This document shows, piece after piece, positions 22,844 through 40,474 of a stretch of 64,000 bases of DNA (positions are counted from its first letter, which is position 1; each line of letters opens with the position of its first letter). Origin of the DNA: Prostheceraeus crozeri (lineage: Eukaryota > Platyhelminthes > Polycladida > Euryleptidae); assembly GCA_907163375.1 (NCBI GenBank), contig CAJQUW010011279.1:104501-168500 (forward strand), read 5' to 3'. The notes below the pieces were generated by a model. It worked only from the letters and a program-made list of their open reading frames with translations, searched no databases and had not been told where the DNA came from. The position numbers and the translations under genes are program-made.

Positions 22844-22916
22844 CATCGTTGAATCACACGAGTGACGGACGCACATTTTCTCTCTCTCTAGTTCCCTGTT
22901 CTATTATCCAACTAAA

Positions 22917-23692
22917 ATGGTAAGTCGCTACTTCCCTCCCTCTCCTCCCTTGAACGTAAACTTAATACAATCTTTTTTCATTTTCAGGCATCTACTCCAT
23001 CTGCTGCACTAGTAGGACAAAATGGCGGTCAAACGTTACAAGGTTCGCTACGGTCAGATCATCTACAACTGAGGCCAGTGGAAGAAACATCCAAGGTACA
23101 TAATCCTACACCGCTACAGCGTAAATTTAAACAAGCCTTGCGTTATGATGATCATAGCGTAGTACTCCAAACGGGAATGCTCCCTTCCACGGATGTCAAG
23201 ATAATGCACAATCAGTATGGGGACTACATACTGATCCCCGTGAGTCCGTACATTCGCCACCAACTTGATATTATTGAGGAGTACGTGACATTAAATATGG
23301 ACATTCCTACTCCTCTTGCTCAAGAGTGGAAGGCGAGAGATGACAAGGATACTCCCTATAGAAAGATTTGGGATGGTAATCACATTTGCCTACCGGTATC
23401 ACATTGGTGTACTTACTATAAGAAGGATGGAGATCATTCAATACCCATCAGATGTGATGAGCTCGGAGAAGGTACTTGGGATATCCTTTTCAAAGTGAAT
23501 GGGCTATATTATGGTCGACACAAGGATAATAAAATAGCCTCTCTCTCCATGCATATGGAATCCATCCTATATATTCCGAAACCACCCAACGTGGACGACA
23601 TAATTGATCAAATCCTTAACAGCAGTGGTACGAAGCGCAAGTCGGAGAAGAATGCTACATCAAAACGCAAATCAAAGAAGGAGAATTGCTAG
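22917..23692 (+). CDS. Spliced early-type viral protein, unknown function
   Basis: The ATG at 22,917-22,919 is immediately followed by a GTAAGT donor (22,920). A 68-bp intron ends TTTTCAG at 22,987, and exon 2 (22,988-23,692) continues in frame to give about 235 residues. Without splicing the ATG reads into a stop, and the first downstream ATG would lose the N-terminus. I do not recognise the protein. Its N-terminus is ASTPSAALVGQNG, the middle is rich in aromatic residues (WGTYYKK-like segments), and the C-terminus ends in a lysine-rich tail (KRKSEKN...KRKSKKE) resembling a bipartite nuclear localisation signal. The TATA/initiator promoter just upstream, shared in design with the polymerase gene, suggests early expression and a nuclear role. 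Confidence 0.65.
22920..22987 (+). other. 68-bp viral intron after the start codon
   Basis: ATG|GTAAGT donor and TTTTCAG|GCATC acceptor. Its twin in the polymerase gene is 67 bp and the second exons begin alike (GCATCTACTCCATC and GCATCAACTTCATC). Confidence 0.75.
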
Positions 23693-24435: not shown

Positions 24436-24458
24436 TGCATGCTTGTTACCGTTATTCA

Positions 24459-24464
24459 ATAAAT
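24459..24464 (+). terminator. Polyadenylation signal AATAAA
   Basis: Lies 24 nt after the stop of the exonuclease-like gene and before the first ATGCAA-headed unit, so it probably ends the early-type transcripts that start near 22,840. Confidence 0.5.
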
Positions 24465-24491
24465 GTTACTATGAGAAGAGTTGTTGTTTTC

Positions 24492-24498
24492 ATGCAAT
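24492..24498 (+). promoter_or_regulatory. Octamer-like motif, ATGCAAT variant
   Basis: The weakest member of the ATGCAAA series (last A replaced by T), 31 nt before the ATG at 24,523. Confidence 0.4.
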
Positions 24499-24522
24499 GG
24501 ATGGGTTAGATAAAGGGCGATC

Positions 24523-24933
24523 ATGTCTTTCTCAAACGACTGCGGAACATTACGTTTTCATAGGCAAAGTTTAAAAGGAGCTGTTCAAGATTATGTGATA
24601 AAATTTCATAAAGATGAGACCGACATCGAAGCAGTGGTCGATGATGCTAGCACTCTATTTCTAGAGTTAATGAATACATTCTCTGATAGCATTATCATGG
24701 CGCGATTAGTTGCGAAAATTAAGTTTAGTCATTTTGGAAAGGAAGAGGTGGAAAGTCGCTCTTTCCATTTTGCTTCTTATTCAATGGAAGTGGTAGATCA
24801 CCCCGAAGAATTTTTTAAAAGACATATGATAAAAATTGCTGAACGTCTTAACGCATTTAACCATCATGGTAGCAGTCTAGTGATTGAAGCGATTTCAGAT
24901 ATTCACATTCAACTTTCCATAAAGAAAAATTGA
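24523..24933 (+). CDS. Viral protein of unknown function
   Basis: 136 residues from ATG at 24,523. The sequence is mixed alpha/beta in character, with no cysteines beyond one and no membrane span. The segment from about residue 60 (ARLVAKIKFSHFG...EEFFKRHMIKIAERLN) recalls a domain that I remember being fused at the N-terminus of polymerases in some animal Polinton-like elements, but this is a weak impression. It begins a short two-gene unit: its stop overlaps the next gene's context (TGAAAATG), with only 2 bases between stop and the next ATG. Confidence 0.55.
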   Translation: MSFSNDCGTLRFHRQSLKGAVQDYVIKFHKDETDIEAVVDDASTLFLELMNTFSDSIIMARLVAKIKFSHFGKEEVESRSFHFASYSMEVVDHPEEFFKRHMIKIAERLNAFNHHGSSLVIEAISDIHIQLSIKKN

Positions 24934-24935
24934 AA

Positions 24936-25259
24936 ATGCAGTGGTACTTGATTGTAGCACAACTGGTTTTCGAGCTATGTCTGCTCACTCTCGAAGTATA
25001 TTCCTTCTGTACATGCGTCTATTATTTAGAAAAGGCTAGCAAATTCATATCTTCAAAAAGACTTGCTATAGACATCAGTAACGGTGAAACTATGTGTTGC
25101 GATGTATGTAAGCGAAAGGATGGAAATGAAAAGCGCATCTTCAAGAGATGTAAGCATGCTTTTTGTCAACGCTGTTTCATACGTAATTGCATTCAACTTT
25201 GCCAATGTAACCACTGTGATATTGCTCATTTCGAGTGTCACTTATGTCGCAATAGTTAG
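24936..25259 (+). CDS. Membrane-anchored RING-finger protein
   Basis: 107 residues. The N-terminal 30 residues are hydrophobic (WYLIVAQLVFELCLLTLEVY) and likely form a signal anchor. The C-terminal half is a clear RING-type finger: MCCDVCKRKDG, then RCKHAFCQRC, then CQCNHC and ECHLC. In order this gives C-x2-C, C-x-H-x2-C-x2-C and C-x2-C pairs. A membrane-tethered E3 ubiquitin ligase acting on host or viral membrane proteins is a plausible role. The start ATG at 24,936 lies two bases after the stop of the upstream gene, so the two are probably read from one transcript. There is no promoter motif directly upstream. Confidence 0.65.
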   Translation: MQWYLIVAQLVFELCLLTLEVYSFCTCVYYLEKASKFISSKRLAIDISNGETMCCDVCKRKDGNEKRIFKRCKHAFCQRCFIRNCIQLCQCNHCDIAHFECHLCRNS

Positions 25260-25264
25260 TACCT

Positions 25265-25271
25265 ATGCAAA
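25265..25271 (+). promoter_or_regulatory. Octamer-like promoter motif ATGCAAA
   Basis: 46 nt upstream of the ATG at 25,311 and just after the stop of the RING gene. One of the recurrent ATGCAAA words that head viral gene units. Confidence 0.5.
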
Positions 25272-25310
25272 TGTGGTAAAGATAGGTTTTAGCAAAGACT
25301 AACACGGAAA

Positions 25311-25667
25311 ATGGCGAAACGTAAAATGACGAAACGTAAAAGTCAAAAGTTTTCTTCAGCCATTCAAGCTCTCCGACGAATGAAAGCAAATCAGCGATAC
25401 AATGCTATACGACATGCTAACGATAAATTCATTTGTGAAATTATTTCTCATGTGAGGAAGTTGAGGACGAAGAAATTAGCGCCAAAACAACGAAAGTTAC
25501 TTAAGCGATATGCTACGAAATTGCGTTTCATCTCCAATCCTAAAGTCGCCCTTCAAAGAAAGAGGAAAACTCTAACACAAAAGGGCGGTTTCCTTTCAGC
25601 AATACTTCCAATGATAGCTCCTGCCGTGGGCAACCTATTGGGAAATATCTTTGGCTCTAAGCGTTAA
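25311..25667 (+). CDS. Basic protein with hydrophobic C-terminal helix (minor virion protein)
   Basis: 118 residues. The first 95 are strongly basic (KRKMTKRKSQK, KKLAPKQRKLLKRY). The last 25 form a glycine-led hydrophobic segment (GGFLSAILPMIAPAVGNLL), followed by a short basic end. The same layout occurs repeatedly next to the packaging ATPase in Polinton and adintovirus-type elements in my memory of the family. The hydrophobic tail looks like a membrane-active amphipathic helix, by analogy with adenovirus protein VI-type functions; that is inference. An ATGCAAA motif sits 46 nt upstream, and the next unit's motif begins 3 nt after the stop. Confidence 0.6.
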   Translation: MAKRKMTKRKSQKFSSAIQALRRMKANQRYNAIRHANDKFICEIISHVRKLRTKKLAPKQRKLLKRYATKLRFISNPKVALQRKRKTLTQKGGFLSAILPMIAPAVGNLLGNIFGSKR

Positions 25668-25669
25668 TT

Positions 25670-25677
25670 ATGCAAAT
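25670..25677 (+). promoter_or_regulatory. Octamer-like promoter motif ATGCAAAT
   Basis: A full octamer (ATGCAAAT), 29 nt before the ATPase ATG at 25,699. It heads a tightly packed set of four genes (25,699-28,273). Confidence 0.55.
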
Positions 25678-25698
25678 GTTGAGTCTCAAAGTAATAAA

Positions 25699-26316
25699 AT
25701 GGATTTCAGACTTCAATGTGATAAAGTTCTGACTGTATCAGGTCCATCTCATGCAGGTAAAACTGTTTTCACGCTGAATTTATTGGATAAAAGAAGGGAG
25801 TTGTTTAAGGAACCTATCAATCGAGTGATTTGGTGTTATGGTATTTATCAACCGTCGCTGTTTCAGGAATTGCAAAGTCGCAACTTTATTCGACATGAAG
25901 GAATTATTCCAGTGGATAAACTTCAGTCTAATGATGTTGTTGTATTGGATGATTTATTAAAAGAAAGTAAGAATTCAAAAGATGTTACAGATATGTTCAC
26001 TCGCGCAGCACACCATAAAAGGTGTTTTATCATCTATATTACACAAAATTTGTTTCCTGATGGAAAAGAAGCTCGTACACGAAACCTGAATACACACTAT
26101 TATGCTATTTTCAAGAATCCGCGAGATAAAAGTCAATTTGAAATTTTAGCGCGACAAGTTGCACCCAGAGGATCAAAAGCCTTAATTGAAATTTTTCAAG
26201 CAGCTACTGAAAAACCATACGGTTACTTATTCATTGACTTTACGCAAGAGTGTCCGGAAGAATTTAGATTTCGAAGTGATATTTTGAAAACTCCCATGAT
26301 TATCTACAAACTATGA
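25699..26316 (+). CDS. Genome-packaging ATPase (A32/FtsK-HerA type)
   Basis: 205 residues from ATG at 25,699. Walker A is GPSHAGKT (residues 15-22) and Walker B is VVVLDD (about 80-85); IYITQN near residue 117 fits the sensor position of this family. Length and motif order match the small packaging ATPases of Polintons, adintoviruses and virophages. It would pump the viral genome into preformed capsids. In-frame codons continue upstream without an ATG, so the first ATG is chosen, 29 nt after an ATGCAAAT motif. Its TGA overlaps the next gene's ATG (ATGA at 26,313). Confidence 0.88.
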   Translation: MDFRLQCDKVLTVSGPSHAGKTVFTLNLLDKRRELFKEPINRVIWCYGIYQPSLFQELQSRNFIRHEGIIPVDKLQSNDVVVLDDLLKESKNSKDVTDMFTRAAHHKRCFIIYITQNLFPDGKEARTRNLNTHYYAIFKNPRDKSQFEILARQVAPRGSKALIEIFQAATEKPYGYLFIDFTQECPEEFRFRSDILKTPMIIYKL

Positions 26317-27005
26317 GTTCTTATTCTCGCATGATTGTTATTCCTCAGGATGAATATGTACAATTGACTGCCATGCAGCAAGTAAAGCAACCTCTTGCAA
26401 ATCAAATGTATAGGAAAGAAATAGATTATCAGCAAAATGTTCACATCAAAGATCCACATCGTGCTGTATTATTACAATCGGAAACTGTTGAGCAATTGAA
26501 AAACTTGAAGAATAAGATGCGTGACTCTGTATCGACTGCTACACCTTTAGCATCTCGCGCACATGCCATATCTCTTTTCAACAGTATTGAACCCCATCTC
26601 AATGTAAATGATAGAGGAGAAATCATTACAGATGAAAATAAAGTGATTGATGCTTCACGTTATGAAGACTTGATTCAGTATGCGACACGTAGAAAGCGCC
26701 GTCAGGGCTATGTTCCACCTGGTTGGTCATACTTTCTTAAACTATTGAAAAAGCATAATGTGCCAAAATTTGCTTTAAATAATGAGACATTGAAAGAACT
26801 TGATTCAACAGTGGCTACTACTCCAATGCTTCAGGCGATGAAAATGCCAACAAATTGGTTTAAGACGTCACCTGCTACATCCCCTCCCACACTCACTAAG
26901 CAAACAAGAGGAAGAACTCGACGTAGATCTACATCGCCACTAAAACTGGTAAAAGGAAAACGTAAAACAGCTCCTCCTAGGAAATACATGTTCTCAGACT
27001 ATTAA
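26313..27005 (+). CDS. Polinton-type structural/accessory protein, coiled-coil rich
   Basis: 230 residues, with its ATG overlapping the ATPase stop by four bases. The N-terminus is SYSRMIVIPQDEY, the middle is predicted helical (EQLKNLKNKMRDSV), and there is a RYEDLIQYATRRKRR segment that reappears in a protein placed next to the ATPase in many Polinton-like elements as I recall them. The C-terminal 45 residues are arginine/lysine/serine-rich (TRGRTRRRSTSPLK), suggesting nucleic acid contact. Function is not established; a minor virion or packaging partner is a reasonable inference from position. Confidence 0.55.
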   Translation: MSSYSRMIVIPQDEYVQLTAMQQVKQPLANQMYRKEIDYQQNVHIKDPHRAVLLQSETVEQLKNLKNKMRDSVSTATPLASRAHAISLFNSIEPHLNVNDRGEIITDENKVIDASRYEDLIQYATRRKRRQGYVPPGWSYFLKLLKKHNVPKFALNNETLKELDSTVATTPMLQAMKMPTNWFKTSPATSPPTLTKQTRGRTRRRSTSPLKLVKGKRKTAPPRKYMFSDY

Positions 27006-27006
27006 T

Positions 27007-27222
27007 ATGAAGCAGATGTGTTGCTTGCCATGTAATGAGCCGCCAGAGGTGAATGTCGTTGTCACTTGCACTTGCTGCGCCAGCTCTCATAATGAAACCC
27101 CTAAGCAATGTGAACACGATCGCAAAACCGCTAAAGCTAAATGCTGCAGTTGTTGTAAATGTAGAAAGGCAAGAAAACAAAAAGATGAGAAGGAGGAAAA
27201 AGAGTCAGCCGTCATCGACTGA
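27007..27222 (+). CDS. Small cysteine-rich protein overlapping the integrase
   Basis: 71 residues from an ATG placed one base after the previous stop. Sixteen or so cysteines occur in clusters: MCCLPC, CTCCASS, CEHD and CCSCCKC, followed by a charged tail (KEEKES). The pattern would bind metal ions or be oxidised, but I know no named family. It overlaps the start of the integrase gene by 38 bases in another frame. Its position in a gapless gene string supports reality; the alternative is that it is only a shadow of an extended integrase N-terminus. Confidence 0.4.
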   Translation: MKQMCCLPCNEPPEVNVVVTCTCCASSHNETPKQCEHDRKTAKAKCCSCCKCRKARKQKDEKEEKESAVID

Positions 27223-28273
27223 ACGTTTGAAGTCAATCTATTATGATGTAAAACATCCGGCAGGATTTGCATCTATCAAGAAATTATCAAAAGCGAGTGG
27301 TCTTCCACAATCACAAGTGAAACGATGGTTAAAGGGTCAGGCTACCTATACACTCCACAAACAAGCGAAAAAGAAGTACCGCACCCGCCATTATATTGTT
27401 CATGACATCGATGAACAGTGGCAAGCAGATTTGTGCGATGTTGCCTCCATTTCAAAACATAACTCGGGCAATAATTTTATTTTAACCGTCATTGATATTT
27501 TCTCGCGTTATGCGTGGGCTCAACCTTTAAAAACTAAAGAAGGGAAAGGAGTAGCAAAAGCATTCCAAACAATTTTTCGAGAAGGTCGCATTCCAAAAAG
27601 AATTCAGAGTGATCAAGGAAAAGAGTTTGAAAATCAGCATGTGACAAGATTATTTGAGAGGCATGACATTGAGTTGTTTAGTGTAAAGAGCGCTTATAAA
27701 GCTGCACTCGTTGAACGTTTTAATCGCACATTAAAAAATCGCTTGTGGCGACATTTTACTGCCAACTTGACACAAAATTGGACAAAGGTTCTACAAGATA
27801 CACTCCATGCCTACAATCACTCTATCCATCGTTCTATTGGACTCAGACCAGTAGATGTAAATGCTGACAATGTAGATAAAGTGCGCGAATCATTCCAACG
27901 TAAACGCACTCATGTGAAAAGTGATGTGAAAATTGGCGATAAAGTTCGTATCTCAAAAGTGAAAAGTGTTTTTGCTAAAGGGTACCTTCCGAATTGGACA
28001 GAGGAGGTATTTACAGTATCAAGGATTAATCAAAAAGACTCTCCGACCACCTACAAGTTGAAAGATTACGATAATGAAGAAATTGAGGGTAGCTTTTACC
28101 GCGATGAGATTGAGGTAGTCACTGAAAGTGAAACATATTTGGTAGAGAAAATCATTCGATGTAAAAAACGGCAAGGTGAAGAATGGTGTCTTGTTAAATG
28201 GACTGGTTATCCTTCAAGTATGAACTCTTGGATGCGTCGTGCCGACATCTTTCATCTAAGTGATCGACAGTGA
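27185..28273 (+). CDS. Retroviral-type integrase with chromodomain
   Basis: 362 residues from ATG at 27,185; longer in-frame openings without ATG or from 27,092 are possible. The catalytic core has D82 (WQADLCD), D143 (QSDQGKEF) and E177 (LVERFNR), a DDE triad with 33 residues between the last two. A helical N-terminal segment (YDVKHPAGFASIKKLSKA) precedes the core, as in other Polinton integrases. The last 45 residues read as a chromodomain (TYLVEKII...EWCLVKWTGYPSSMNSW), which generally steers integration towards marked chromatin. The enzyme would insert the linear viral genome using its terminal repeats. All triad residues are present, so it looks functional. Confidence 0.92.
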   Translation: MRRRKKSQPSSTERLKSIYYDVKHPAGFASIKKLSKASGLPQSQVKRWLKGQATYTLHKQAKKKYRTRHYIVHDIDEQWQADLCDVASISKHNSGNNFILTVIDIFSRYAWAQPLKTKEGKGVAKAFQTIFREGRIPKRIQSDQGKEFENQHVTRLFERHDIELFSVKSAYKAALVERFNRTLKNRLWRHFTANLTQNWTKVLQDTLHAYNHSIHRSIGLRPVDVNADNVDKVRESFQRKRTHVKSDVKIGDKVRISKVKSVFAKGYLPNWTEEVFTVSRINQKDSPTTYKLKDYDNEEIEGSFYRDEIEVVTESETYLVEKIIRCKKRQGEEWCLVKWTGYPSSMNSWMRRADIFHLSDRQ

Positions 28274-28276
28274 TTC

Positions 28277-28283
28277 ATGCAAA
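28277..28283 (+). promoter_or_regulatory. Octamer-like promoter motif ATGCAAA
   Basis: 38 nt before the ATG at 28,315, in the only gap between the integrase stop and the capsid gene unit. Confidence 0.55.
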
Positions 28284-28314
28284 GTTGTAACTAACAATGT
28301 TTAGGGTTTGAGCT

Positions 28315-28770
28315 ATGAATCCAACTGCCTCATTTTATTCACGACCCTCCTATGTAAGTGGTGGAGGACAAATTTACATCGGTGCTCGCCGCCAACGTGG
28401 AGGTAGCATACTTGGTGCACTGAAATCTGTTGTAGCACCTCTCATATCCAATGTCGGTAGATCTTTAAAACGAAATGTTTTAAGTAATGCCGTTGGCTTT
28501 GCTGGTGATGTTGCTAGTGATCTTTCCAGAGGTAGAAGTTTTAAGAGCAGTTTGTTGAATCGTGGGAAGGAACGCGGTTTAAAAACATTGAAGCAGACCA
28601 TTGCTGGTGTTACTCAAGGAAAGAAATCACCTAAACGAATGAATAAAGGAAGGAGGAAACATCGCGGAGCTGGTAAGGTGCGATCTTCAGTCAAAAGGCA
28701 TTCACGCAAACGTCGCAGAGGCTCTAATCATTCATCAGGCGCTAAACGACGACGCTGCTATAACTTCTAA
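28315..28770 (+). CDS. Basic core-like minor virion protein
   Basis: 151 residues. The N-terminus carries a glycine-rich GGSILGALKSVVAPLI segment and an amphipathic stretch (SLKRNVLSNAVGFAGDVASD). The C-terminal third is extremely basic (KRMNKGRRKHRGAGK, KRHSRKRRRG, AKRRRCYNF), resembling DNA-condensing core proteins of adenovirus-like viruses. It is located directly before the capsid gene with a 2-base gap. Equivalent genes sit next to the capsid in related elements as I remember them. Packaging of viral DNA is inferred from charge and position. Confidence 0.6.
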   Translation: MNPTASFYSRPSYVSGGGQIYIGARRQRGGSILGALKSVVAPLISNVGRSLKRNVLSNAVGFAGDVASDLSRGRSFKSSLLNRGKERGLKTLKQTIAGVTQGKKSPKRMNKGRRKHRGAGKVRSSVKRHSRKRRRGSNHSSGAKRRRCYNF

Positions 28771-28772
28771 TC

Positions 28773-30050
28773 ATGGAGTGTAAAACTTCCGGTTTTTGTT
28801 TGTTCGATCAACAAGCCATACAGACAGATATTCTTAGTTCAAGTATTGTAGATTATCATCCTCGAACAGCTGAGAATGCTGGCCCCATTGAATTTGTTAT
28901 TCCTGGTGGTAGTGATGACTACATAGATTTGAGTTATGCGATGCTTGATTTGAGGTTTAGAATTCAGCAAGCAGATGGAACTGCTATTGACGATGCACAT
29001 AAAGTTGGACTGAACAATTTACCATTGACTACATTACTTCGCGATGTTTCTCTAACGATTGGAGAGCAGCAGGTGGAAGGTGGTCAAAGCGATTATCCCT
29101 ATAAATCATATTTCAATCATGTATCACAGTTTCATCCAGCAGCACAAAAAAGTCATATGGAAGCCATGGGATGGTACAGAGATGAAGCAGGAAAATTTGA
29201 TGTTGAAACAAACAGTGGCTTTGTAAAGCGATCTGCTATGATTAAAGATAGTAGAGTATGTCAGCTATATGGTCCGCTGAATTTAGACTTCTTTAGACAG
29301 TCAAAGTTTTTACTCTGTAATACCAGCATGCGACTCAAGCTGACATTGAATAAGCCTGAATTTGCGCTGAATGCATTTGCTAAAGTTGACAATTTTAGAA
29401 TTCATGTGGAAGATATTGCACTTTACATTCGTCGAGTAGTACCGAATCCAAGTGTCATTAGAGGGCATGCTGAAGGTCTTAACCGCCAAAATGCCATTTA
29501 CCCCGTTCAGCATACAAAGCTTCTCACCTTTACAATTCCGAAAGATCAAAAGAGTTTCATGAAAGATGGCCTCTTTCCATCGGAAGCACCGAAGCTCCTC
29601 ATGGTGGCAATGGTTGAAAATGATGCATTTAATGGTAATATAAAGAAGAATCCTTTCAATTTTAAACACAATCAGTTAAGTGAAATTGCTTTACGTGTTA
29701 ATGGTGTGAGTCATCCTGGTCCACCCTACAAACCAGATTTTGCTTCGGATCAATTTATGCGCAGTTATGTTGATTTTATGGATGTCTTTGGCTTTTACAA
29801 TACGGATGACACCAACGGACTGACTATGAAAGAGTTTAAGAGTGGATATACTATTTATGCATTTGATTTGACTGCTGACAGCGATATTAGTGCACCCTAT
29901 CGTCAAGCGAACGTGCCTCATAATATTCGTTTGGATTTGACGTTCAAAAGAACACTACCTGAGACGATCAATGTATTAATTTATGCAGTCTTCGATTCAA
30001 ATATTGAAATTACAAAGTATCGTGACGTGATTCTTCAGTATAATCGTTAA
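28773..30050 (+). CDS. Major capsid protein candidate (F54H12.2-like family)
   Basis: 425 residues. The N-terminal part has PIEFVIPGGSDDYIDLSYAM and LRFRIQQADGT, characteristic of the family annotated in invertebrate genomes as 'uncharacterized protein F54H12.2-like', which in these elements I take to be the jelly-roll capsid protein. The C-terminus NVLIYAVFDSNIEITKYRDV also fits. No signal peptide or membrane span. A double jelly-roll hexon role is inferred from family and from the adjacent protease and core genes; structure prediction would decide between major and minor capsid. The stop overlaps the protease ATG by one base (TAATG), so both are probably on one transcript. Confidence 0.75.
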   Translation: MECKTSGFCLFDQQAIQTDILSSSIVDYHPRTAENAGPIEFVIPGGSDDYIDLSYAMLDLRFRIQQADGTAIDDAHKVGLNNLPLTTLLRDVSLTIGEQQVEGGQSDYPYKSYFNHVSQFHPAAQKSHMEAMGWYRDEAGKFDVETNSGFVKRSAMIKDSRVCQLYGPLNLDFFRQSKFLLCNTSMRLKLTLNKPEFALNAFAKVDNFRIHVEDIALYIRRVVPNPSVIRGHAEGLNRQNAIYPVQHTKLLTFTIPKDQKSFMKDGLFPSEAPKLLMVAMVENDAFNGNIKKNPFNFKHNQLSEIALRVNGVSHPGPPYKPDFASDQFMRSYVDFMDVFGFYNTDDTNGLTMKEFKSGYTIYAFDLTADSDISAPYRQANVPHNIRLDLTFKRTLPETINVLIYAVFDSNIEITKYRDVILQYNR

Positions 30051-30511
30051 TGAGTTGGTTGACTGCTGACGATATTAAGACTAAAGTGCAGCGTAATGCA
30101 GACGAAGCGACGTTGAAAGCTTTCGATAATGTCTATTCACTCGATACCTTACCACCTGCAGTAAATCACTATCCCATCTTTATTGTGCTAAACACTCATT
30201 CACAGAATTTAGGCGGTGAGCATTGGAAAGCGATCTTTATTGGAGAAGACCGACGTGGTGAACTATTTGACTCTCTTGCTCAACCTCCAAATATACCAAC
30301 ACAGCAGTGGTTGAGAAAACATACGCGTCAATATCAGCGAAATGAACGCATACTACAACATCCACTTTCATCAACGTGTGGTGCTTTTGTACTGTACTTC
30401 ATCTTAAAACGTTTACATGTATCTCGATTTGCATCTGTTATTCAAAACTTTTCATGTAATCCATCCTCTAATGAAAAAATGATTTGTAAGTTCTATCATG
30501 ATTTGAAATAA
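30050..30511 (+). CDS. Adenain-like maturation protease (C5/Ulp1 type)
   Basis: 153 residues. The catalytic set is in order: H58 (GGEHWKAIF), D74 (ELFDSL), Q103 (ILQHPLSST) and C110 (STCGAFVLY). Spacing and length match small adenovirus-type cysteine proteases of Polintons and adintoviruses. Such enzymes cleave capsid and core precursors during virion maturation. The ATG overlaps the capsid gene stop. The stop TAA lies inside an AATAAA (30,507-30,512 region) that probably also ends the transcript. Confidence 0.88.
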   Translation: MSWLTADDIKTKVQRNADEATLKAFDNVYSLDTLPPAVNHYPIFIVLNTHSQNLGGEHWKAIFIGEDRRGELFDSLAQPPNIPTQQWLRKHTRQYQRNERILQHPLSSTCGAFVLYFILKRLHVSRFASVIQNFSCNPSSNEKMICKFYHDLK

Positions 30512-30545
30512 AAACATCATGTTGGAAAAAATTGTTTTTTATTTT
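30506..30545. terminator. Convergent polyadenylation signals
   Basis: GAAATAAAAAC on the plus strand overlaps the protease stop, and TTTTTTATTTTAC (AATAAA on the minus strand) lies at the end of the TBP-like gene 30 bp away. Two converging transcription units therefore share about 40 bp for 3' end formation. Confidence 0.6.
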
Positions 30546-31084
30546 ACAATCCGCTGGGTACGTACATACTCAATGAGATAGTCTAGGATCATATTTGCTT
30601 GTTCATGAGATTTTAGTCCAGTAATGATCACTTTACTATTATGAAAGATTGCCACATGCACAGGTAACCAACAACTAATGAGAGCTGCAGGAAAAAGTTC
30701 GGGTTCATAACACAAACTGTAACTGCTGGTACGAATCTTCAAAAATGATAGACTGTCACTCAATTGAGTAGAGATCACCATATTGTCCACAGTCAGATTC
30801 GACATCACACACCTCTCCCTCTTCCATATCCGACGTAGTAGTCTTTGTAGCTCTAAGCGCATTGACTGCGCCGATGAATGAGAAAGGGCGCCGAGAATCT
30901 GTACAGTCCCATTTGGGAAGAGTTGAAGATTCCGTGAATTGTTCATCTTCACCACTAACATTTGAGGACGGCCCGGGTAATACTTGCTGTTTGGAAGCTG
31001 TTGGTGTAATGTTGTGAGATCGATTTTGGTGTAGAGTCTGAAGCGACGGAGAATGTTGACGATGGTGTAGCGATGGCGCTTCAT
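30539..31084 (-). CDS. TATA-binding-protein-like viral protein
   Basis: 181 residues from ATG at 31,084 (minus). Two repeats read like the halves of a TBP saddle. The first, about residues 33-85, has KYYPGRPQMLVVKM followed by LFPNGTVQILGALS. The second, about 118-170, has LCYEPELFPAALI, close to the YEPELFP stretch of cellular TBPs, followed by AIFHNSKVIITGLKS. The pattern Y-x-P, then F-x-x-G-x-V-x-x-T/L-G, occurs in both. It would bind promoter DNA or replace host TBP on viral promoters. The N-terminal 110 codons are overprinted by the tail of the upstream PC4-like gene. I recall similar proteins in other invertebrate Polinton-like elements, unnamed. Confidence 0.7.
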   Translation of the reverse strand: MKRHRYTIVNILRRFRLYTKIDLTTLHQQLPNSKYYPGRPQMLVVKMNNSRNLQLFPNGTVQILGALSHSSAQSMRLELQRLLRRIWKRERCVMSNLTVDNMVISTQLSDSLSFLKIRTSSYSLCYEPELFPAALISCWLPVHVAIFHNSKVIITGLKSHEQANMILDYLIEYVRTQRIVK

Positions 31085-31406
31085 GATGAAAGAATGAGTA
31101 AATTGAGCGATGTACCTTCCTTTTATACTTTTCCCAACTACCTTGATGAAATGTGAAGTTAGTATGAAGTTGGGAATGATAGAGTTGAATTCGCCGATTG
31201 TTGACGCGCAGCCAGATGCGATTTCCAATACGTGAATGTCTTTTCATATAGAAGTATTTCAAGTCCTTCATGATATGATGTAGAGATTGAAAATGACGAT
31301 AAGATAAAGCAAACTCTCTTCTCACATTTCCAGTTGAATCTTTGAAATAGACGTTTCGATCATGATCCGTTTCAATACGTTGTAGGGAATCTAATTTCCA
31401 ACTCAT
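30756..31406 (-). CDS. PC4-like protein with overprinted acidic tail
   Basis: 216 residues. The first 105 are paralogous to the neighbour at 31,429-31,785: both start M-x-W-x-LDSLQ, share FK(D/N)S, (F/T)L-x-(Y/W)R, DL(K/E)YF, IQ(L/I)YHS and WEKY(K/R)R(K/Y)(V/I)HRSI. The GITLTWRQF-type segment recalls the single-stranded DNA binding coactivator PC4, but this is a weak match. The last 110 residues are low complexity, serine/histidine-rich and then acidic (DMEEGEVCDVESD), and lie in a different frame of the TBP-like gene. An ATGCAAAT on the minus strand (31,434-31,441) is 35 nt before the start. Confidence 0.5.
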   Translation of the reverse strand: MSWKLDSLQRIETDHDRNVYFKDSTGNVRREFALSYRHFQSLHHIMKDLKYFYMKRHSRIGNRIWLRVNNRRIQLYHSQLHTNFTFHQGSWEKYKRKVHRSIYSFFHHEAPSLHHRQHSPSLQTLHQNRSHNITPTASKQQVLPGPSSNVSGEDEQFTESSTLPKWDCTDSRRPFSFIGAVNALRATKTTTSDMEEGEVCDVESDCGQYGDLYSIE

Positions 31407-31428
31407 GGTGCGTGGTAGTCATGTCTGA

Positions 31429-31785
31429 TTAAGATTTGCATAGTAGGGCGATGAACTCACGACGAATAAATGTCATGATGGAGCGATGTATGTATCTTCT
31501 ATACTTCTCCCAATTGTATTTGCGAAATGAGAAACAGTTTGCGGAATGAGAATGGTAGATTTGAATTTCATTTCTGTAATGTTGAAGCCAAACTTGATCA
31601 CCCAAGGAGATGAATCTTAATGTTTCAAAATATTCCAAATCCCTCATGATATCATTGAGGTTGACAAATTGTCGCCATGTTAATGTAATTCCTCTTGATG
31701 TATGACCATGAGAATTTTTGAAATGTACGTTTCCATCACGATCAACTCTGATATATTGTAGAGAGTCCAAAATCCAAGTCTTCAT
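31429..31785 (-). CDS. PC4-like protein, second tandem copy
   Basis: 118 residues from ATG at 31,785 (chosen because MKTWILDSLQ aligns with MSWKLDSLQ of the paralog; an ATG four codons upstream also exists). It matches only the N-terminal 105 residues of the neighbour, showing that the long acidic tail there is an addition. The GITLTWRQFVNLNDIM segment is the part that resembles the PC4 fold. A transcription cofactor acting with the TBP-like protein is inferred from position, not shown. Confidence 0.5.
   Translation of the reverse strand: MKTWILDSLQYIRVDRDGNVHFKNSHGHTSRGITLTWRQFVNLNDIMRDLEYFETLRFISLGDQVWLQHYRNEIQIYHSHSANCFSFRKYNWEKYRRYIHRSIMTFIRREFIALLCKS
31434..31441 (-). promoter_or_regulatory. 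Octamer-like promoter motif ATGCAAAT, minus strand
   Basis: 35 nt before the ATG at 31,406 and within the last codons of the upstream minus-strand gene. Shows that the motif keeps its orientation relative to the gene it serves. Confidence 0.5.
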
Positions 31786-31791
31786 GATGTT

Positions 31792-31798
31792 ATGCAAA
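31792..31798 (+). promoter_or_regulatory. Octamer-like motif between divergent genes
   Basis: ATGCAAA in the 35-bp space between the minus-strand PC4-like start (31,785) and the plus-strand start (31,821); 29 nt before the latter. For the minus gene it is in reverse orientation. Confidence 0.5.
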
Positions 31799-31820
31799 GT
31801 TGCAGATTAGCAATATAAAA

Positions 31821-33218
31821 ATGTCGTTTTATCATATTTTGCTTAGCAATGCGGCTACAAAGAGATTTACTAGTAATCGAGCCGCACTCTTTTCTACTCC
31901 CATTGATCATGCACAACAGCTAAATGGGAATTGGGAAGTGGGTGTCACTCAACTTGTTTATAGCAACTGTGTCTATACTTTTGATCATGAGGTGATGACT
32001 ATTAATATGAGGCGTACAGCTGCTTATCAATGTGAAAAGGGGTGCCGAGTATACATTCCACAGTGGCCAAAGAAAGATCTCTTATCATGTAAAAAGTTTA
32101 TATATGATTTCTTGAATAAAGCGTGTAAACATATTGTCCAATTTACTCCGCACAATGATGATTATAATTATGTACATCATGTAGTTGAGAAAGATTGGAT
32201 TGTTGGTTTAAGTCCAAGTTTAAGAAATGATTTAGGCTACCTCGCTAGCGCCTTAACAAGCTATGATAATTTTAACGTTAATTACCACATAAGTGGTCAT
32301 AAACAGTTAATATATCGAGAGGAAGCTTATTATGTAGATCTTATTCCAAGAAATGAGAAGACGTTGGTGAAGAAGATTGTGATTAAGCCAAGAAAGACAA
32401 ACATGACTCCTGAAACATTATTGAAGAAATTTAATTATCTCCTTCGAGTTGATGGCAAACAAGTGGCAACATTGACTTATATTAAATCATCTAATCATAT
32501 TGCAATAAGCAAATTAAATGATGATGATCTAGTATTAGTTTGTTCAAAAGATTTTCATCAGTTCTTACGACATCGTTCTGCAGCTGTTCATGGAAAATCT
32601 GATATGCAACATTTACCATGTGAAAGGTCAAATCAATTTGATACAGAATGGGCCGTATCTTTATACAGAAAGTGTGTAGAGCCTTTTGGTGGTTTCTTAC
32701 ATGAAACAAGAGTGTTGATGCCTCGCATTATTACTTCGGTTAAATTGGTTGTAGATTATTTAAATGAAGTGATTAATGAGCAACATATTTCATTTTCTGA
32801 AAAAGAAGGTACTTTGTCTCTCACTATAAGTGGAAAAGGTATTGAACTAATTATGGATAAAACTCTAATGGACATTTTGGGTTTTGATCAAAATATCTTT
32901 AAAAGTGGTACTGTAACCAAAGCTAGCGCAGACATGTCGCTATCGCGTCGTATTAACTATTTTCAGATATATTCCAATATTGGTGAAGATGTACGTGTGG
33001 GAGATGTTGAAGCTCCATTGCTAGCAATGATACCATACCAGCCAAAAAGCTGCAGTATTTTATCTGAGCATACTTTCAAGAAAGTGCATTATACAAAGCT
33101 GAAATCAAACTACATCCCACAAATTGATATTGCCATTTATGACGATGCTGGTGCGTTGATTCCTTTTCATAAAGATGCTGTGACAAGTATCACACTCCAT
33201 TTCCGAATGAAGAGTTAA
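31821..33218 (+). CDS. Large virion-type protein, paralog 1
   Basis: 465 residues from ATG at 31,821. The N-terminus pairs a short LLSNAATKRF motif with GNWEVGVTQLVY about 30 residues later; the same two-part pattern opens the following gene. Later, a conserved ITLHF-like strand ends the protein. No signal peptide, membrane span or enzyme motif. I recall proteins with a 'LPSN...W-EVG' opening in invertebrate Polinton-like elements next to capsid genes, never with a firm function; penton, fibre or another surface role is possible. It is a late-type gene by its ATGCAAA motif. Confidence 0.55.
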   Translation: MSFYHILLSNAATKRFTSNRAALFSTPIDHAQQLNGNWEVGVTQLVYSNCVYTFDHEVMTINMRRTAAYQCEKGCRVYIPQWPKKDLLSCKKFIYDFLNKACKHIVQFTPHNDDYNYVHHVVEKDWIVGLSPSLRNDLGYLASALTSYDNFNVNYHISGHKQLIYREEAYYVDLIPRNEKTLVKKIVIKPRKTNMTPETLLKKFNYLLRVDGKQVATLTYIKSSNHIAISKLNDDDLVLVCSKDFHQFLRHRSAAVHGKSDMQHLPCERSNQFDTEWAVSLYRKCVEPFGGFLHETRVLMPRIITSVKLVVDYLNEVINEQHISFSEKEGTLSLTISGKGIELIMDKTLMDILGFDQNIFKSGTVTKASADMSLSRRINYFQIYSNIGEDVRVGDVEAPLLAMIPYQPKSCSILSEHTFKKVHYTKLKSNYIPQIDIAIYDDAGALIPFHKDAVTSITLHFRMKS

Positions 33219-33224
33219 TGCAAA
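33218..33224 (+). promoter_or_regulatory. Octamer-like promoter motif ATGCAAA
   Basis: Starts at the last base of the previous stop and lies 40 nt before the ATG at 33,258. This distance favours that ATG over the one at 33,228. Confidence 0.5.
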
Positions 33225-33257
33225 AGTATGCTAATATATTTTTCCAATGTGAATAAT

Positions 33258-34856
33258 ATGGAAAGTGAAAATAAGGACTCGTTTCTAATCTACTTGCCCA
33301 GTAATGCTTCTATGAATAAATTTCCCAAAAATAAACCATCAGACTATCGAGTAGAATTAAATCGGCCACTGCATTTAGAAGGTGAATGGGAGGTTGGCGT
33401 TTCTAGTATTTGCTATGATAGCAATATTCAGAATGTGAATGATTTGGAAGAAATGATATTGACTCCTCGCACCCATGATGGAATAACGATGAATAATGCA
33501 TTTCAGTTCCCATACAATTTAACATCAGATGGAAAGTGGAACTATGAATGGATTCAGATAAAATCAGATTCTTATGAGCCATTTGGGAATGAGAAAATTA
33601 TTAAGGCATTCAACAGTGGTAATACTTCCATCATGAAGAATAAAAATCAGAAAGCTTATGAGTTTACTATCTATCATTGGAGTGGGAGACAGTTCCTCCG
33701 CTTTCATTCTTTTACTAAAGGTCTTACGCTGAGGTTGGATAGTGAATTCTATCCACATCTTGGTTTTGGTCATGGACTACATCTAACGTCAATTGCTACT
33801 GCAAATGTTAAAAAAGTTTATTCAAATCGAATCAACAAATTTCATTATAGATTTAAAATATTTGATGAAGATGTTGTAGAATGCGAAGAACGCATCATTT
33901 TGAAAAAGCGTGGTGTTCAACCTTTATCACTTATTGAGTTAGTAAAACGATGGAATGAGACTGTGGGTAAGAAGTATGGAGAGAAAATTATGGCGGACAA
34001 AAATAAGTTGGTTATTCAGAAATATAATGACAAACTTACAGTTTATTTCTCTCCAACCTTGCGTCATTTTGTAAGACATTATACACCTATTATTGGAAGC
34101 GGTGTGGTGTATGCTTCTCATGAATATCACACTAAAGCTGATTCAGTTAATGATGAATGGTGGGTGGACATCTATGGCGATCGCATCAAGAAAATTTACC
34201 AGTCTTATGAAGAATCTAAAGTTGCTATCAATATAATGCCGCGTCTATATCATACAGTTGAAAGCTTCATTCATGTAGTAAATCCTTATATACAACAGAA
34301 GTTGAAGCATGTGATGAAAAGTAAATATGATGTAAAGACACACCACATTTCGTTTTCAATTGAAAATCAACGCGTTGTTCTGAAACTGGGTGATGACATT
34401 CAATGTCAATTGAGTAAAAATTTGAAAAAACTCTTTGGTTTTTCAATGCTACAAACTGTGTTTGCTGCTGCGCATACGATTGGTATAGAAACACCAATGA
34501 CACTTGATAAACATGAACAGCACCTTTACATTCAAAGTGATTTGATTTTACCTATTTCTGTTGGTGAGAAAAAAGAATACATTTTACGTGATTTCATTCA
34601 TGATAAAGACGCTTCATATGGAATAGTCGAGAAGATGTTTGAATCTATTTTCTATCATCCCGTCGTCAAACAAACTATACCCTCTATTGCTATCAAAATT
34701 ACCAATGGTTTACAAGAGTGCATCCATGTGAAAGATACTAAATCCCTCGTAACTTTAGTGCTGTTCGCATGTACCGCGCATATAGGGCCGCGGTACGCTA
34801 TCTCACCCGCCATCGCTTTCAATAATTGTTTTTACGGAGGGGGATTGGGATCATAG
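33258..34856 (+). CDS. Large virion-type protein, paralog 2
   Basis: Up to 532 residues from ATG at 33,258. The opening FLIYLPSNASMNKFPKNK and GEWEVGVSSICY match paralog 1 (LLSNAATKRF, GNWEVGVTQLVY). Similarity continues through mid-protein blocks such as (F/Y)SPTLRHF versus FHQFLRH. From about 34,740 the predicted C-terminus no longer resembles the paralog's ending, and the DNA changes character, so a frameshift there is likely and the last 40 residues are doubtful. It is the last intact gene before the broken right half. Confidence 0.5.
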   Translation: MESENKDSFLIYLPSNASMNKFPKNKPSDYRVELNRPLHLEGEWEVGVSSICYDSNIQNVNDLEEMILTPRTHDGITMNNAFQFPYNLTSDGKWNYEWIQIKSDSYEPFGNEKIIKAFNSGNTSIMKNKNQKAYEFTIYHWSGRQFLRFHSFTKGLTLRLDSEFYPHLGFGHGLHLTSIATANVKKVYSNRINKFHYRFKIFDEDVVECEERIILKKRGVQPLSLIELVKRWNETVGKKYGEKIMADKNKLVIQKYNDKLTVYFSPTLRHFVRHYTPIIGSGVVYASHEYHTKADSVNDEWWVDIYGDRIKKIYQSYEESKVAINIMPRLYHTVESFIHVVNPYIQQKLKHVMKSKYDVKTHHISFSIENQRVVLKLGDDIQCQLSKNLKKLFGFSMLQTVFAAAHTIGIETPMTLDKHEQHLYIQSDLILPISVGEKKEYILRDFIHDKDASYGIVEKMFESIFYHPVVKQTIPSIAIKITNGLQECIHVKDTKSLVTLVLFACTAHIGPRYAISPAIAFNNCFYGGGLGS

Positions 34857-35339: not shown

Positions 35340-36325
35340 TCGGAACCAGAAGTCATTGTGATATTGTTTAGTGAAATAAAAATATTGTTATGAAAAAGTC
35401 TTTTTCACAGATATAGGGGAAATGGCTGACTGTATGCATATTTCACAAGGCAAGACAACGATCTCATGCGATACATAAAACAACCATGTATATCTACAAA
35501 AAAGCAACATGCACAAATACTGAGTTTAAAGTTGATTATGTCAATACATCTCCTGATGTGGTAGCGTGAGTTTATATTCTTTTGGGTGAGGTATGTTTGT
35601 TGTCAGGATGTCCATGTGGAAGAGATGTGTTATTCTATCCAACACCCCTCTTATCCCTCCCATGCTGAAAGTGCTCGTGTCTTGTCTTGTGACGTGTACG
35701 TGTTTCACAGCTGGGGGGTTTTGATTTCTGATTAGAGTAGCGGATACCTTGCGGCCCCCCCCCCTCCCCCAAGACTGCGCCCTCCCTCACCCCCCCCCGC
35801 CCCTCCCCCCCTCCCCCCCCCACGCCCCCGCGACTTTATTGATTACCCAAGAGGTTGAGTGGTGTCACTTAGCGGGACTCCATGTAAGTTGTGTAGAATG
35901 TTGGGGGGATCGGAGGGGTGTTGTTACGGAAAAAACTCAAAGTGAGAGTCATTGTGATAGTTTATTGAAATAAAATATGTATATGAAAAAAGTGCTTTTC
36001 ACTATATAGGGGGGAATGGGGGCATGTAAGGGGGGCGGGGCAATATTATTCACAAGGAAGAGATCGATCTCATGCGATACACTATTAAAACAGAAACCAT
36101 GTTTATCTACCAAAAAGCAACATCAAAATATCTGAGTTAAAGTTGATTTATGTCTCTACCATCTCAACTGAAATGTCGGTGGTAGCGGTGCGGTTTTATT
36201 ATTTGGGAGGAGGACTGTTAGTGTCAGGATGTCCATGGGAAGAGATGTGTTTATGTCTATCCCACACCTCTATATCCTCATGTGAACGAAGTCGATTCTT
36301 GAACGTGTACGTTTTCACAGTATGA
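35340..36325. repeat. Direct duplication with many indels
   Basis: 35,350-35,711 and 35,950-36,320 are the same sequence: both contain CATTGTGATA, ATCTCATGCGATACA, TTTATCTAC/TATATCTAC, GTCAGGATGTCCATG and end with a GTGTACGT(G)TTTCACAG segment. They differ mainly by one- to three-base insertions and deletions. The copies span the 3' end of the minus-strand polymerase and an AATAAA for plus-strand transcripts (about 35,376). Between them is a C-rich tract (35,750-35,830) of nearly pure C. This looks like an unresolved assembly duplication as much as a biological repeat. Confidence 0.6.
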
Positions 36326-39300
36326 ACTTGAGAGTTTTAAGATTGTCATACTTGGACAACGTATTAGTTTTATTTTTATAGGCCTTTATATGAGGCCCGA
36401 TGTTTCATTTAGACGGAACAATGGATTTTGATATACCTTTAGCACGTTAATACTATCAGCCCATTTCTTTTTCGTTTCATGGATACATTTTGCGGCGAGC
36501 ATCCTTTCATATAGTTTCCTTTCATGCTGTTTCATCCTTTGTAAAAACACTCAAGTTTGGGCTGTTATTCTGTCTCGGAATGAGTGGGATGAGTGGGAGA
36601 TTGTAGTTCGATGTTCGAATATTTTTTAATGACTATCTCCACCTTCGATTAAACTTTACTCTTTTTGAGTGGTAATTCCTAAAACGAAAACCTATCTGTA
36701 TCACCACCCAGCGCAAGCGACCCTCCATTTACGCGGGGCCTGGTTTTCATATTTTGTAGAAGGACGTTGAATACATTTCACGCTGGCAATAACTCTAGAA
36801 CGCTTCGCCCAATATCGATGGGTTTGCACAATCTCAACACCTACACCTCATATACCACCTTTTAACACTAATACAGCCTTCACGATGATGTCTCTATCCA
36901 ATGAAACGAGGGGATGAGGATCAATTTGTGATATTTGTGTTCATACAACGATAGTTTGGTAATTCATACGTTTTCTAACAATCCTACGCATGGTCTTTTT
37001 TTTTCCGAATAGACTATTATTCTTATATTTATAAAAATCCTTTTCAAAATTATTTTGGGCGAGTGCACGTTTTTGACTGTTACTATCTATGTAGGGTTTG
37101 AGGAAGGCTTTCTGTCTATATTTGATAATGCGGTGAACTGACTTTAGAAGCATGCCCATTTCTAAATAGAATTTTAATATGCAGAAGTGTACGAGATAAT
37201 TTTTCTTATCATATTGGGTGAGTAAAAGTTTGCGGCATGGTTTGTACCTTGGCTGTCCTCACTCTGTTAAGTTATTATGAAATTGTGACATGAATGGTGA
37301 AAACATATCTTCAGTCACTTCGCCAGATTCAGGTTGCGTGTGGGACAATCAGCTGTTTGATTTTTAATTGCTATTTGGATTTTTTAAAAAAAAAAAAAAT
37401 CAAATCCACTTTCAAATTAATATTCACCTATCACCTTCATTGGAAATCTTCAGTATGTTTGATGGTTTGGAGTAATACTCAAGCTCATCTTGATTTATAC
37501 AACTAACTCGGAATGAGGTTGAGAGTAGTGGTTTAGACAGTGAAAACTGGCCATTGTAACTTATTTTGGTCATAGTACTTTAGGTTTGGATATGTTCTAT
37601 CACCTTACTGTTTTAGGACTTTATATGATGGTTTATTTACAAATGTGCAGCCACCGCGTATTCCTGCGCTCAAATATTTTATACATCTCGGGGTCTTGTA
37701 AGAGATGGATGGTCTCAACAGTCATTTTAAATGGCTGATTTTAAATGGACATGGCTGGTTAGGACTGACAAAGTGGACAGGAATCTAATTGGCTTCTTCT
37801 AATGGCCACTCGTCGAAACTTCTGAAAGGACATTCAGCCAGCAAAATGACATCTAATTTCTAAGCTAAGCGATCATATACTCGCCACCAAACGTTTTACA
37901 ATCATAATTTAAACCATGCCTACCTTGTAGCATTGATTCATAGTCCTCTACTGGGACAATCTGGTTCACCCGTCAAATCGTTTTTGAAATTTGTCATGAA
38001 TGGAGTAAGGGTTGTTTCTTTTTGTTTTAGACATTGTGCTTAAATACGCATAAGGAAAGACTCTTTGCGAGTGATTATTTACATCCGTTAAGATTTGGAA
38101 ATAGGGGTGTGTTTCTTCAAAGTTTGACTATGGGGGAAGAAACTTGAGATTTCGAACGAGAGACGCTAGTGACCGCTGACCTGAATTGAATATGAATCTA
38201 AAATTTTATTTCGAAGAAGACTGTCTTTATTTTCCTTTAGGTTTTATCTAATGGTACTTTTGCTGTCATTGCCATGAATTTTTCTCTCGTTTGTGCTATT
38301 ACATTAAACTGCCACGATTTCATCTGGCTCAACCCTCCTTTTATGTCAGCATATGACTGTCATAGCCCTTAAAGTTATGAAAACATGAAGGGTAGTACAC
38401 GACGTACATCAAACCTCAACGTGAAAAGTTACATTTGGTAGGGAGCAGAGTGTTAGTGTTTGTTGCTTTTGAGCCGTTCTAAATTTTCCAGTGATGTGAT
38501 CATGATCACGCACTTTCTTAATTTTATCGTCTTCAAACGTTTTATGGACATTTAGGACAGGATGTGCAACTTTCAAAATTTTTGTTTGTCTTCATCTGAC
38601 ATTTCGTAGTGACTTACGCTGCAATTGGGAATCATATGATTGTTGAAATTTAGGAGCTTTATCGAGAAATTCTAGAAATTTTGAAATGCAACTCTTCACC
38701 TTGCCAAGTATGCATTTTGTTTTGTCTATTCCTTAAAGTGGTCATGCCAATACTTCATAGCAGGATATGGCTGCTGGTTGTGGATGATATCATCATTGTA
38801 GCATTCTATGTCTGCGTAAATGACACGCAGGGGGACTTTAATTCGTCACCACTATTCCCTATGTGAAAATATTTTTATCTTTGGGCATGCGTTCCATTTG
38901 TTAATTTACCTCGCTTGCACCATTCATAAGTGAGTTTCAAATTTATCTTTACTCCAAAAGGAGCGGATTGCAGCGGTCGCATACAAAATGTTCACTCTTT
39001 TAGAGTGCCCCAAGTGAGTGTACAAGCGAGAGATTTTTGGGAATACCACAGTAGTGCCATTCCTCGCTATCATCTTGTGTTTTACTAATAAGAGGTTGAC
39101 TACACGTTCATAACAAGTTGAACGTGAATTATAGCAGGGCACCCCTTTCAAACCCCTTTCTATCCACACCGTGAACGACATTTTTATCTTATTATGTTTT
39201 TCGATCGTTTCTACATCTCTTGATTTTCATGTTGTTTTTTAAACTATCACAACCTTCATAAGTCTAGTTCATCCTCACCACTGTCTATAGCTTTTAGGTG

Positions 39301-40117
39301 CGAATCTCGTTGGCGTATGATATCATTATAGTGTGAAGGAATGGATAGGACTGCATATTTGGATACACTGTGGATTTACAATCAACATTGATGACAGCTT
39401 TCTTATTATACAACGTTTTTGGTAGTTTAAATGTGCCTCGAGCTGCATGACTTTCTAATAGGGAAATTTTGAATATGGCTGAGTCCACACCATCAAAAAT
39501 GAGAGCGCTGTCGCGTTGATTGAATTTATCTACATTTGATTTTAAACATTGAATGTGAAAATTTAGCCAAGACTCGCAGTCTACAACTTCGGGTGCGGAA
39601 GAGGAAGGAACATGAAACTGTATTCTCTCCGTCACTTGACCCGTTTGAAAATCTATCTTAATATATTTTAGTTTAAGGTAGATGAGCGCCTTCATTCTAA
39701 AATTGTCTAAACTATTGAAGAGCGCTTCGATAATGTTAGAATTTTGAAGGAGCCACTCAGGAAAATCTACAATTTGAGTATTGGACTCCATGCAGTAGTC
39801 GCGTACTAAATTATTATGTGAAACATTAATGAGGGAGATGGTAGAGGTACCGTTGGTGTAGTGATCATTTGAATGCGTGTGTTGAAGTCTGTGCGAAGAT
39901 CGCTGAAAGTGACTATCAAAAGAAAGAGGGCACAAATCGCAAGGAAAGGAGATGTCATCGTCGAAGATTTCCAACTTCACTCCGGAGATTTGACGCCGCT
40001 TTTGCGTTGACACACACGTTTTGTTTGGATGTGTCGAAGGTGACTGTGCTTCACTTGTAAACATTATGTCCGCAGTCGGCACATTCCACTAGTTGCCTTG
40101 CCGCGAGAGTCCTGGAG

Positions 40118-40407: not shown

Positions 40408-40439
40408 TGAAATGATATGAATGTAACTTTGCTTATATA
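40408..40439 (-). promoter_or_regulatory. TATA/initiator promoter of the polymerase gene
   Basis: TATATAAG (40,439 down to 40,432) and TCAATTC with its A at 40,408 give a 31-bp spacing, identical to that at 22,809-22,840. The leader that follows shares GTGACGAACGCAC and most of 37 bases with the left leader. Confidence 0.7.
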
Positions 40440-40474
40440 CTTTCTTTCTCTTCATTCATTGGATGTTCTTCTGA

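Follow-up and report, generated by a model that had tools for sequence, protein, structure and literature searches.

The capsid-side genes of a disrupted Polinton/adintovirus-like provirus in the genome of Prostheceraeus crozeri are preceded by a short motif that is probably a variant TATA box, read by a TATA-binding protein (TBP) that the element itself encodes and acting as the core promoter of its late genes, "late" being a label given from gene function only. The provirus lies in a 64-kb stretch of contig CAJQUW010011279.1 (hereafter the window), and the gene cluster scored here spans positions 24400–33330. An earlier examination of this DNA (the original prediction) had placed ATGCAAA or a variant of it at seven sites ahead of virion genes. 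All seven positions are correct, and the observation as a whole is borne out by where the sites lie and by their enrichment in the cluster. The sites are listed below with the distance from the A of ATGCAA to the start codon; counted from the first base of the motif, the distance to the ATG of the late genes is 30–47 nucleotides (nt).

24491..24498, +: putative late motif, variant CATGCAAT, before gC; A at 24492, 31 nt before the ATG at 24523
25264..25271, +: putative late motif TATGCAAA before the pX-like gene (start 25311); 46 nt
25669..25676, +: putative late motif TATGCAAA before the packaging-ATPase-like gene (start 25699); 29 nt
28276..28283, +: putative late motif CATGCAAA before gK (start 28315), the lead gene of gK-MCP-protease (MCP, major capsid protein); 38 nt
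31435..31442, -: putative late motif TATGCAAA before gM (start 31406); 35 nt; also in copy L033
31791..31798, +: putative late motif TATGCAAA between gN (-) and gO (start 31821); 29 nt; families 2 and 3 have TAAGCAA before gO
33217..33224, +: putative late motif AATGCAAA, overlapping the gO stop, before gP (start 33258); 40 nt

A Motif Ahead of Gapped Starts

Over the whole window ATGCAAA is not in excess, with 18 occurrences on both strands where 23.3 are expected; the expectation is about one per 5.5 kb per strand, rather than the one per 16 kb on which the original prediction relied. Within the cluster the motif is placed far beyond chance, even though the window total is not raised. Six of the eight cluster matches lie on the same strand as a start codon and 29–46 nt ahead of it, while the other two, 27272(-) and 30434(-), are antisense within genes. 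ATGCAAA thus stands 25–50 nt before 6 of 14 cluster starts, whereas 4000 shuffles gave 0.08 on average and never more than 2. The spacing claimed originally is right in substance, with a measured range of 29–46 rather than 27–46 nt.

The 14 starts comprise eight gapped ones, separated from the preceding gene, and six ungapped ones. When any 6-mer was allowed to compete, ATGCAA was found ahead of seven of the eight gapped starts, a result obtained in 0 of 5000 trials with random windows and 0 of 20000 in which each upstream window was shuffled; no 6-mer stands out at the six ungapped starts. The absence of the motif at genes abutting the previous stop was also correctly described, none being present at 25–50 nt from 24936, 26313, 27007, 27053, 28773 or 30050.

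Recurrence in Divergent Families

The host genome yields three lineages of related elements, the window family, family 2 and family 3. Near copies, mostly 95–100% identical, carry no independent information and were dropped as evidence. Family 2 (L029) has the same gene order, with 66% identity to the window in the ATPase, 54% in the MCP and 31% in gO. Its five ATGCAAA all lie within genes and none at the motif boundaries. TAAGC is found instead, 33–37 nt before the ATG, at all five plus-strand gapped starts tested (pX1, ATPase, gK, gO and gP), which is significant over all 5-mers (5/20000 and 13/20000) without use of the window motif; in full it reads TTAAGC/CTAAGC.

Family 3, which I grouped by gO and gP sequence, consists of L030 (MCP 51%), L031, L032, L034 and L035. 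Its members have TTTTAAGCAAAG or TTTAAGCAAAG before gO, CTATGCAAT before gP (GTATGCAAT in L032 and CTATGCAGT in L035) and, in L030, TTATGCTAAG before the ATPase gene. Both motif variants therefore coexist within one family, TTTTAAGCAAAG at gO and CTATGCAAT at gP, as expected if a single factor reads them. Judged from these sites, the core of the motif is TAWGC[AT]A rather than ATGCAAA, with TATGCAAA in the window family and TAAGCAA in its relatives. Absence of the motif at orthologous positions, which would have counted against the original prediction, is thus not what the sister elements show, but this is true of a modified form alone: a related core is present at equivalent positions, and the heptamer itself is missing there from family 2, which has TAAGC.

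A matrix trained solely on the seven window sites was then applied to the relatives. It recovered sites in L030 (ATPase, p = 0.0042; gP, 0.0099), L031 (gO, 0.0043), L032 (gO, 0.0043), L029 (pX1, 0.0099) and L033 (gO, 0.0014; gP, 0.0043). Among copies in which anchors caught the gene start, the others being left uncounted, A[AT]GCA[AG] occurs within 50 nt of gO in 35 of 35 (20 fetched by the motif and 15 by protein homology) and ahead of gP in 34 of 35. The 15/15 score of the homology-fetched copies at gO comes from non-independent copies of three families. The spacer between motif and gO has changed from 29 nt in the window to 36 and 38 nt in L039 and L033, and the motif has been kept. As a separate observation, the gO-gP block of L030 is inverted relative to the capsid block, and the gP motif is still present.

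A TBP Homologue under a TATA-Type Promoter

A gene absent from the original prediction, at 31084–30542 (-), encodes a TBP homologue of 181 codons counted from the ATG at 31084 and overlaps gM by 329 nt in another frame. Its product matches Pfam PF00352 in two stretches (E 4.6e-21; 74.9 bits, cut-off 22.9), so that both tandem TBP repeats are present, and solved TBPs match the 229-residue open frame with a best E of 7.2e-14. Family 2 has a TBP in the same place (PF00352 E 1.3e-23; 43% identical to that of the window), family 3 has one in L030 as two pieces (41–46% identical, E 1e-13), and the L033 protein is 83–84% identical. No TBP match was found in the L031, L032 and L046 pieces, which do not cover that part of the element.

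TBP has four intercalating phenylalanines (PMC12529657). By alignment, three of the four are retained in the window and family 2 proteins, and the first phenylalanine of repeat 1 is replaced by proline in both. The threonine of the repeat-1 ITG motif has likewise become leucine or methionine in both, while the matching repeat-2 residues are kept; in cellular TBP these residues contact the box. It is tempting to suggest that the changed repeat 1 fits the changed box.

The TBP gene has a promoter of another type from that of the capsid-side genes, shared with genes outside the cluster:

31085..31127, -: early-type promoter of the TBP gene, TATAAAAG at 31127, TCATT 30 nt downstream, ATG at 43; like arrangement in family 2 and L033
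22809..22817, +: TATA box TATAAATAG of gA, TCATT 29 nt downstream
40427..40439, -: TATA box TATATAAGCAAAG of the right-arm gene, TCATT 24 nt downstream

TATAAAAGG is common to the window and family 2 TBP genes; TCATT follows at +30 in both, and the ATG at 43 and 46, respectively. TATAAAA is found at the TBP gene in all 22 anchored copies and likewise in L033. Three further TATATAA sites (42331, 42858 and 45387), which may belong to element genes, have TCA[GTC]T at 28–30 nt; all five TATA sites examined as early have TCA[GTC]T 24–30 nt on. TATA-to-ATG distances are 43 nt for the TBP gene and 39 and 50 nt for two further TATA sites. By contrast, TATA[AT]A is found 8–100 nt upstream of none of the eight gapped capsid-side starts (gO has one at 7 nt). 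The early box TATATAAGCAAAG contains the late variant. The stretch upstream of the right-arm gene is 72% identical to that of gA over 87 nt. These two genes, at opposite ends, also have a similar leader with an apparent intron at the start codon (22915–23001 at gA and 39780–40504 at the right-arm gene).

A Putative Late Core Promoter and Its Alternatives

That the motif is a dedicated promoter element of the capsid-side genes is well supported, given its position, its independent recurrence in divergent families and the contrast with TATA-type early promoters. In the mechanism that I consider probable, the early genes, that of TBP among them, would be transcribed by host RNA polymerase II from ordinary TATA plus initiator (Inr) promoters. 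The early TBP would then bind the variant box TAWGC[AT]A ahead of the capsid, packaging and integrase genes and recruit polymerase II, which would start about 25–30 nt downstream of the box and produce leaders of about 0–22 nt. Genes lying directly behind another gene's stop would ride on the same mRNA.

Initiation at the A of the motif itself, as at the baculovirus late TAAG, the reader being a polymerase of viral or helper-virus origin or some other factor, would instead give leaders of 29–46 nt, a normal length, and would render the ATG of ATGCAAA harmless at the cap. The TTAAGC/CTAAGC of family 2 also recalls baculovirus late RNAs, which begin at the second base of TAAG (PMC8789824). The window family, however, has TATG and not TAAG, and none of 20 open reading frames (ORFs) scanned has a Pfam match to an RNA polymerase (a genome search for LEF-9 gave no match, but its control was silent too, which makes it uninformative). 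Since the distance from motif to ATG is that of a TATA box and the element encodes a TBP homologue, this possibility is unlikely. The two halves of the original proposal, a dedicated late promoter or initiator, have thus fared differently. A site for a host factor is a poorer candidate still. Three of the seven sites read ATGCAAAT, the POU octamer, which is known in several animals, and a C/EBP site is another conceivable example; the octamer is broken at the other four sites and in families 2 and 3, which mostly have AAGC for ATGC, and a general activator site needs no such proximity to the ATG.

A signal acting in RNA, whether a leader element, an aid to reinitiation, or a splice or 3' end signal following an upstream stop, could account for the motifs at 25670, 28277 and 33218, which overlap or follow such a stop. 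It would not explain the site at gO, which in the window and in family 2 lies between divergent genes where there is no upstream stop, and the sole AG of the gP gap is at the motif's own end, with no pyrimidine tract; I consider this quite improbable. Chance, or mere shared descent of nearly identical intergenic DNA, is the least credible explanation. Most fetched copies are indeed 95–100% alike, but the window and family 2 are each significant alone, with different k-mers, and the motif stayed at gO in L039 and L033 while the spacer length changed.

Several observations weigh against a variant TATA box read by the element's TBP. The occurrence of a TBP gene beside such a motif is an association and not a proof. 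At the ATPase and gO genes, 30 nt from the first motif base, a start 25–30 nt downstream would leave an unusual leader of 0–5 nt, and by eye no Inr-like sequence was seen at +30 of the window late sites. Short spacing is not general for early genes, the TATA-to-ATG distance being 108 nt for gA and 111 nt for the PolB-like gene. Nor does the motif head every virion gene unit, as had been proposed. Seven of the eight gapped starts have it, but gN (31785, minus) has no ATGCAA at 25–50 nt, whether its start is 31782 or 31785, and family 2 lacks TAAGC at two of seven gapped starts (a gN-like divergent start, and gC of L046). The window matrix is weak or fails in L029 (ATPase, 0.71; gK, 0.093; gO, 0.056; gP, 0.054) and L030 (pX, 0.41; gK, 0.20). 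The MCP and protease starts of L030, preceded there by 31-nt gaps, show no motif (0.18 and 0.11). The matrix also misses L033 gK (0.77) and gM (0.96; scored from 6245, although an in-frame ATG that comes earlier, at 6263, has the motif 34 nt away), chose a neighbouring site at gP of L031 and L032, and the motif is lost at gP in L045. Apart from these cases, gB, whose start follows a 212-nt gap, has no ATGCAA at 25–50 nt; by eye, an AG after pyrimidines precedes its start in the window family and family 2, and gB may be spliced from an early promoter.

Polycistronic units, the remaining part of the original proposal, are plausible, since they fit the stop/start coupling kept in family 2. In the window as in family 2, the ATPase gene overlaps gG at ATGA, and the junctions of gK with MCP and of MCP with protease are within 2 nt (L030 has 31-nt gaps at these two). 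The units would be gC-gD, pX, ATPase-gG-gH-integrase, gK-MCP-protease, gM, gO and gP. The protease gene has AATAAA at its end (30507, +), as has the TBP gene (30543, -), though the hexamer is also found elsewhere.

Comparison with Known Systems

Beta- and gammaherpesviruses are also nuclear viruses that encode a TBP-like protein. In their late genes the sole promoter element that can be made out is a short variant TATA box, some 30 bp ahead of the start (PMC6541308, PMC12529657), the ORF24 protein of Kaposi's sarcoma-associated herpesvirus being a TBP-like reader of the late box TATTWAA; here the variant motif is known from sequence. The herpesvirus protein belongs to a viral initiation complex of six proteins. 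The virus group is unrelated, the box is TAWGC[AT]A with a central G-C step, and the protein is a compact two-repeat TBP recognised by Pfam. Baculoviruses, too, have early genes with TATA/Inr promoters, a short late element close to the ATG and polycistronic RNAs (PMC8789824), polycistrony being only plausible here; the element differs from them in that TAAG is read as an initiator by a viral multisubunit RNA polymerase, of which none was seen among the ORFs scanned, and in that the window motif is not TAAG. Mavirus, the endogenous mavirus-like elements (EMALE) and Cafeteria roenbergensis virus (CroV) have a late promoter, TCTA, and resemble the present case in their related capsid lineage, in the position of the motif before ORFs and in the difference of motif between types. 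TCTA, however, lies in AT-rich flanks and is thought to be recognised by giant-virus transcription factors, and the accessible part of PMC8547959, the source for these points, does not mention an element TBP.

The literature search covered promoters, in titles and the openings of abstracts, and found nothing, among the papers listed, on those of animal Polintons or adintoviruses; term searches of PMC8097293 and PMC4028283 likewise gave nothing on Polinton promoters. No account of the timing of Polinton capsid genes was found in this literature, for which a TBP gene and a matching variant TATA box provide a testable answer. The Polinton lineage has been placed close to the base of many eukaryotic DNA viruses. 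There is perhaps an even chance that this Polinton carries a complete private promoter switch, in which an early TBP lacking the conserved phenylalanine and the ITG threonine of repeat 1 is matched to a late box with a central G-C step in three divergent families. Such a switch would parallel the TBP/TATT switch of herpesviruses, independently of it and perhaps from an earlier date. A TBP gene paired with such a box bears on the origin of viral TBPs and could mark the late units of further Polintons. Since cellular TBP is strongly conserved, naturally occurring pairs in which both TBP and box are altered would aid the study of DNA recognition by TBP.

Gene Map and Nature of the Element

The genes of the element are as follows.

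22917..23692, +: gA, read from sequence as ATG, presumed intron GTAAGT...CAG and second exon 22988–23692 (234 open codons)
24523..25259, +: gC and gD, no Pfam match near cut-off
25311..25667, +: pX-like basic protein, Adeno_PX E 0.0024, below cut-off
25699..26316, +: packaging-ATPase-like gene, Pox_A32 E 0.026, below cut-off
26313..28273, +: gG, gH and the integrase gene, which abut or overlap; the integrase has rve (E 1.3e-10, above cut-off) and Chromo
28315..28770, +: gK, basic protein, 46% identical to family 2 over 95 residues
28773..30050, +: MCP, double jelly-roll
30050..30511, +: protease (C48/C5-like), Peptidase_C48 E 0.0012, just under cut-off
30756..31406, -: gM, paralogue of gN
31429..31785, -: gN, predicted PUR-alpha/PC4-like fold
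31821..33218, +: gO, distant paralogue of gP (cross-matches 23–35%)
33258..34760, +: gP, seemingly broken off near 34760 (end judged by eye)
35539..39791, -: large right-arm gene remnant, frame-disrupted, traced by tblastn with the 1150-residue open frame of copy L047

The predicted structure of gN consists of two tandem beta-sheet-helix repeats, a PUR/PC4-like fold (MOSUB), and resembles MOSUB from two adintoviruses, with Foldseek E values of 2.4e-3 and 0.13. gN is also a candidate cofactor. On the minus strand at about 31836–31845, inside the start of gO, TAAGCAAAA lies some 60 nt before the motif-less gapped start of gN. The right-arm gene of L047 (374–3823, -; 1150 residues) matches Pfam Endonuclease_7 (E 1e-6). 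Its frame has no match to a Pfam polymerase family or to a solved structure, and it is tentatively called PolB-like from one motif, PolB being the protein-primed type B DNA polymerase of Polintons.

Like adintoviruses and Polintons (Mavericks), the element has an rve integrase, a double jelly-roll capsid protein and protease-like and ATPase-like genes; the resemblance of gN to MOSUB is a further likeness to adintoviruses. Homologues in the protein collection number 263 for the capsid protein and 462 for the ATPase. No relatives were found among IMG/VR contigs by MCP alone, MCP alignment or ATPase alignment, nor among GTDB contigs (MCP alignment) or in the phage collection. Polintons are bounded by terminal inverted repeats with a 6-bp target duplication. 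Inverted repeats at 22077–22760 and 45721–48148, found in part in several copies, are perhaps the element ends with other insertions between them, and nested insertions are likely.

A capsid swap suspected in L021 (MCP 58%) was rejected as due to frameshifts, the DNA being 99.2% identical, and several "divergent" genes of L023, L024 and L027 look like indel noise. A first look at the whole genome gave 12880 capsid candidates, of which 98 were scored, and one 11-mer of the element family has 11344 genome matches, compared with 496 for a control. The element is probably one of thousands of nearly identical copies in the 2.05-Gb genome, which suggests a recent burst.

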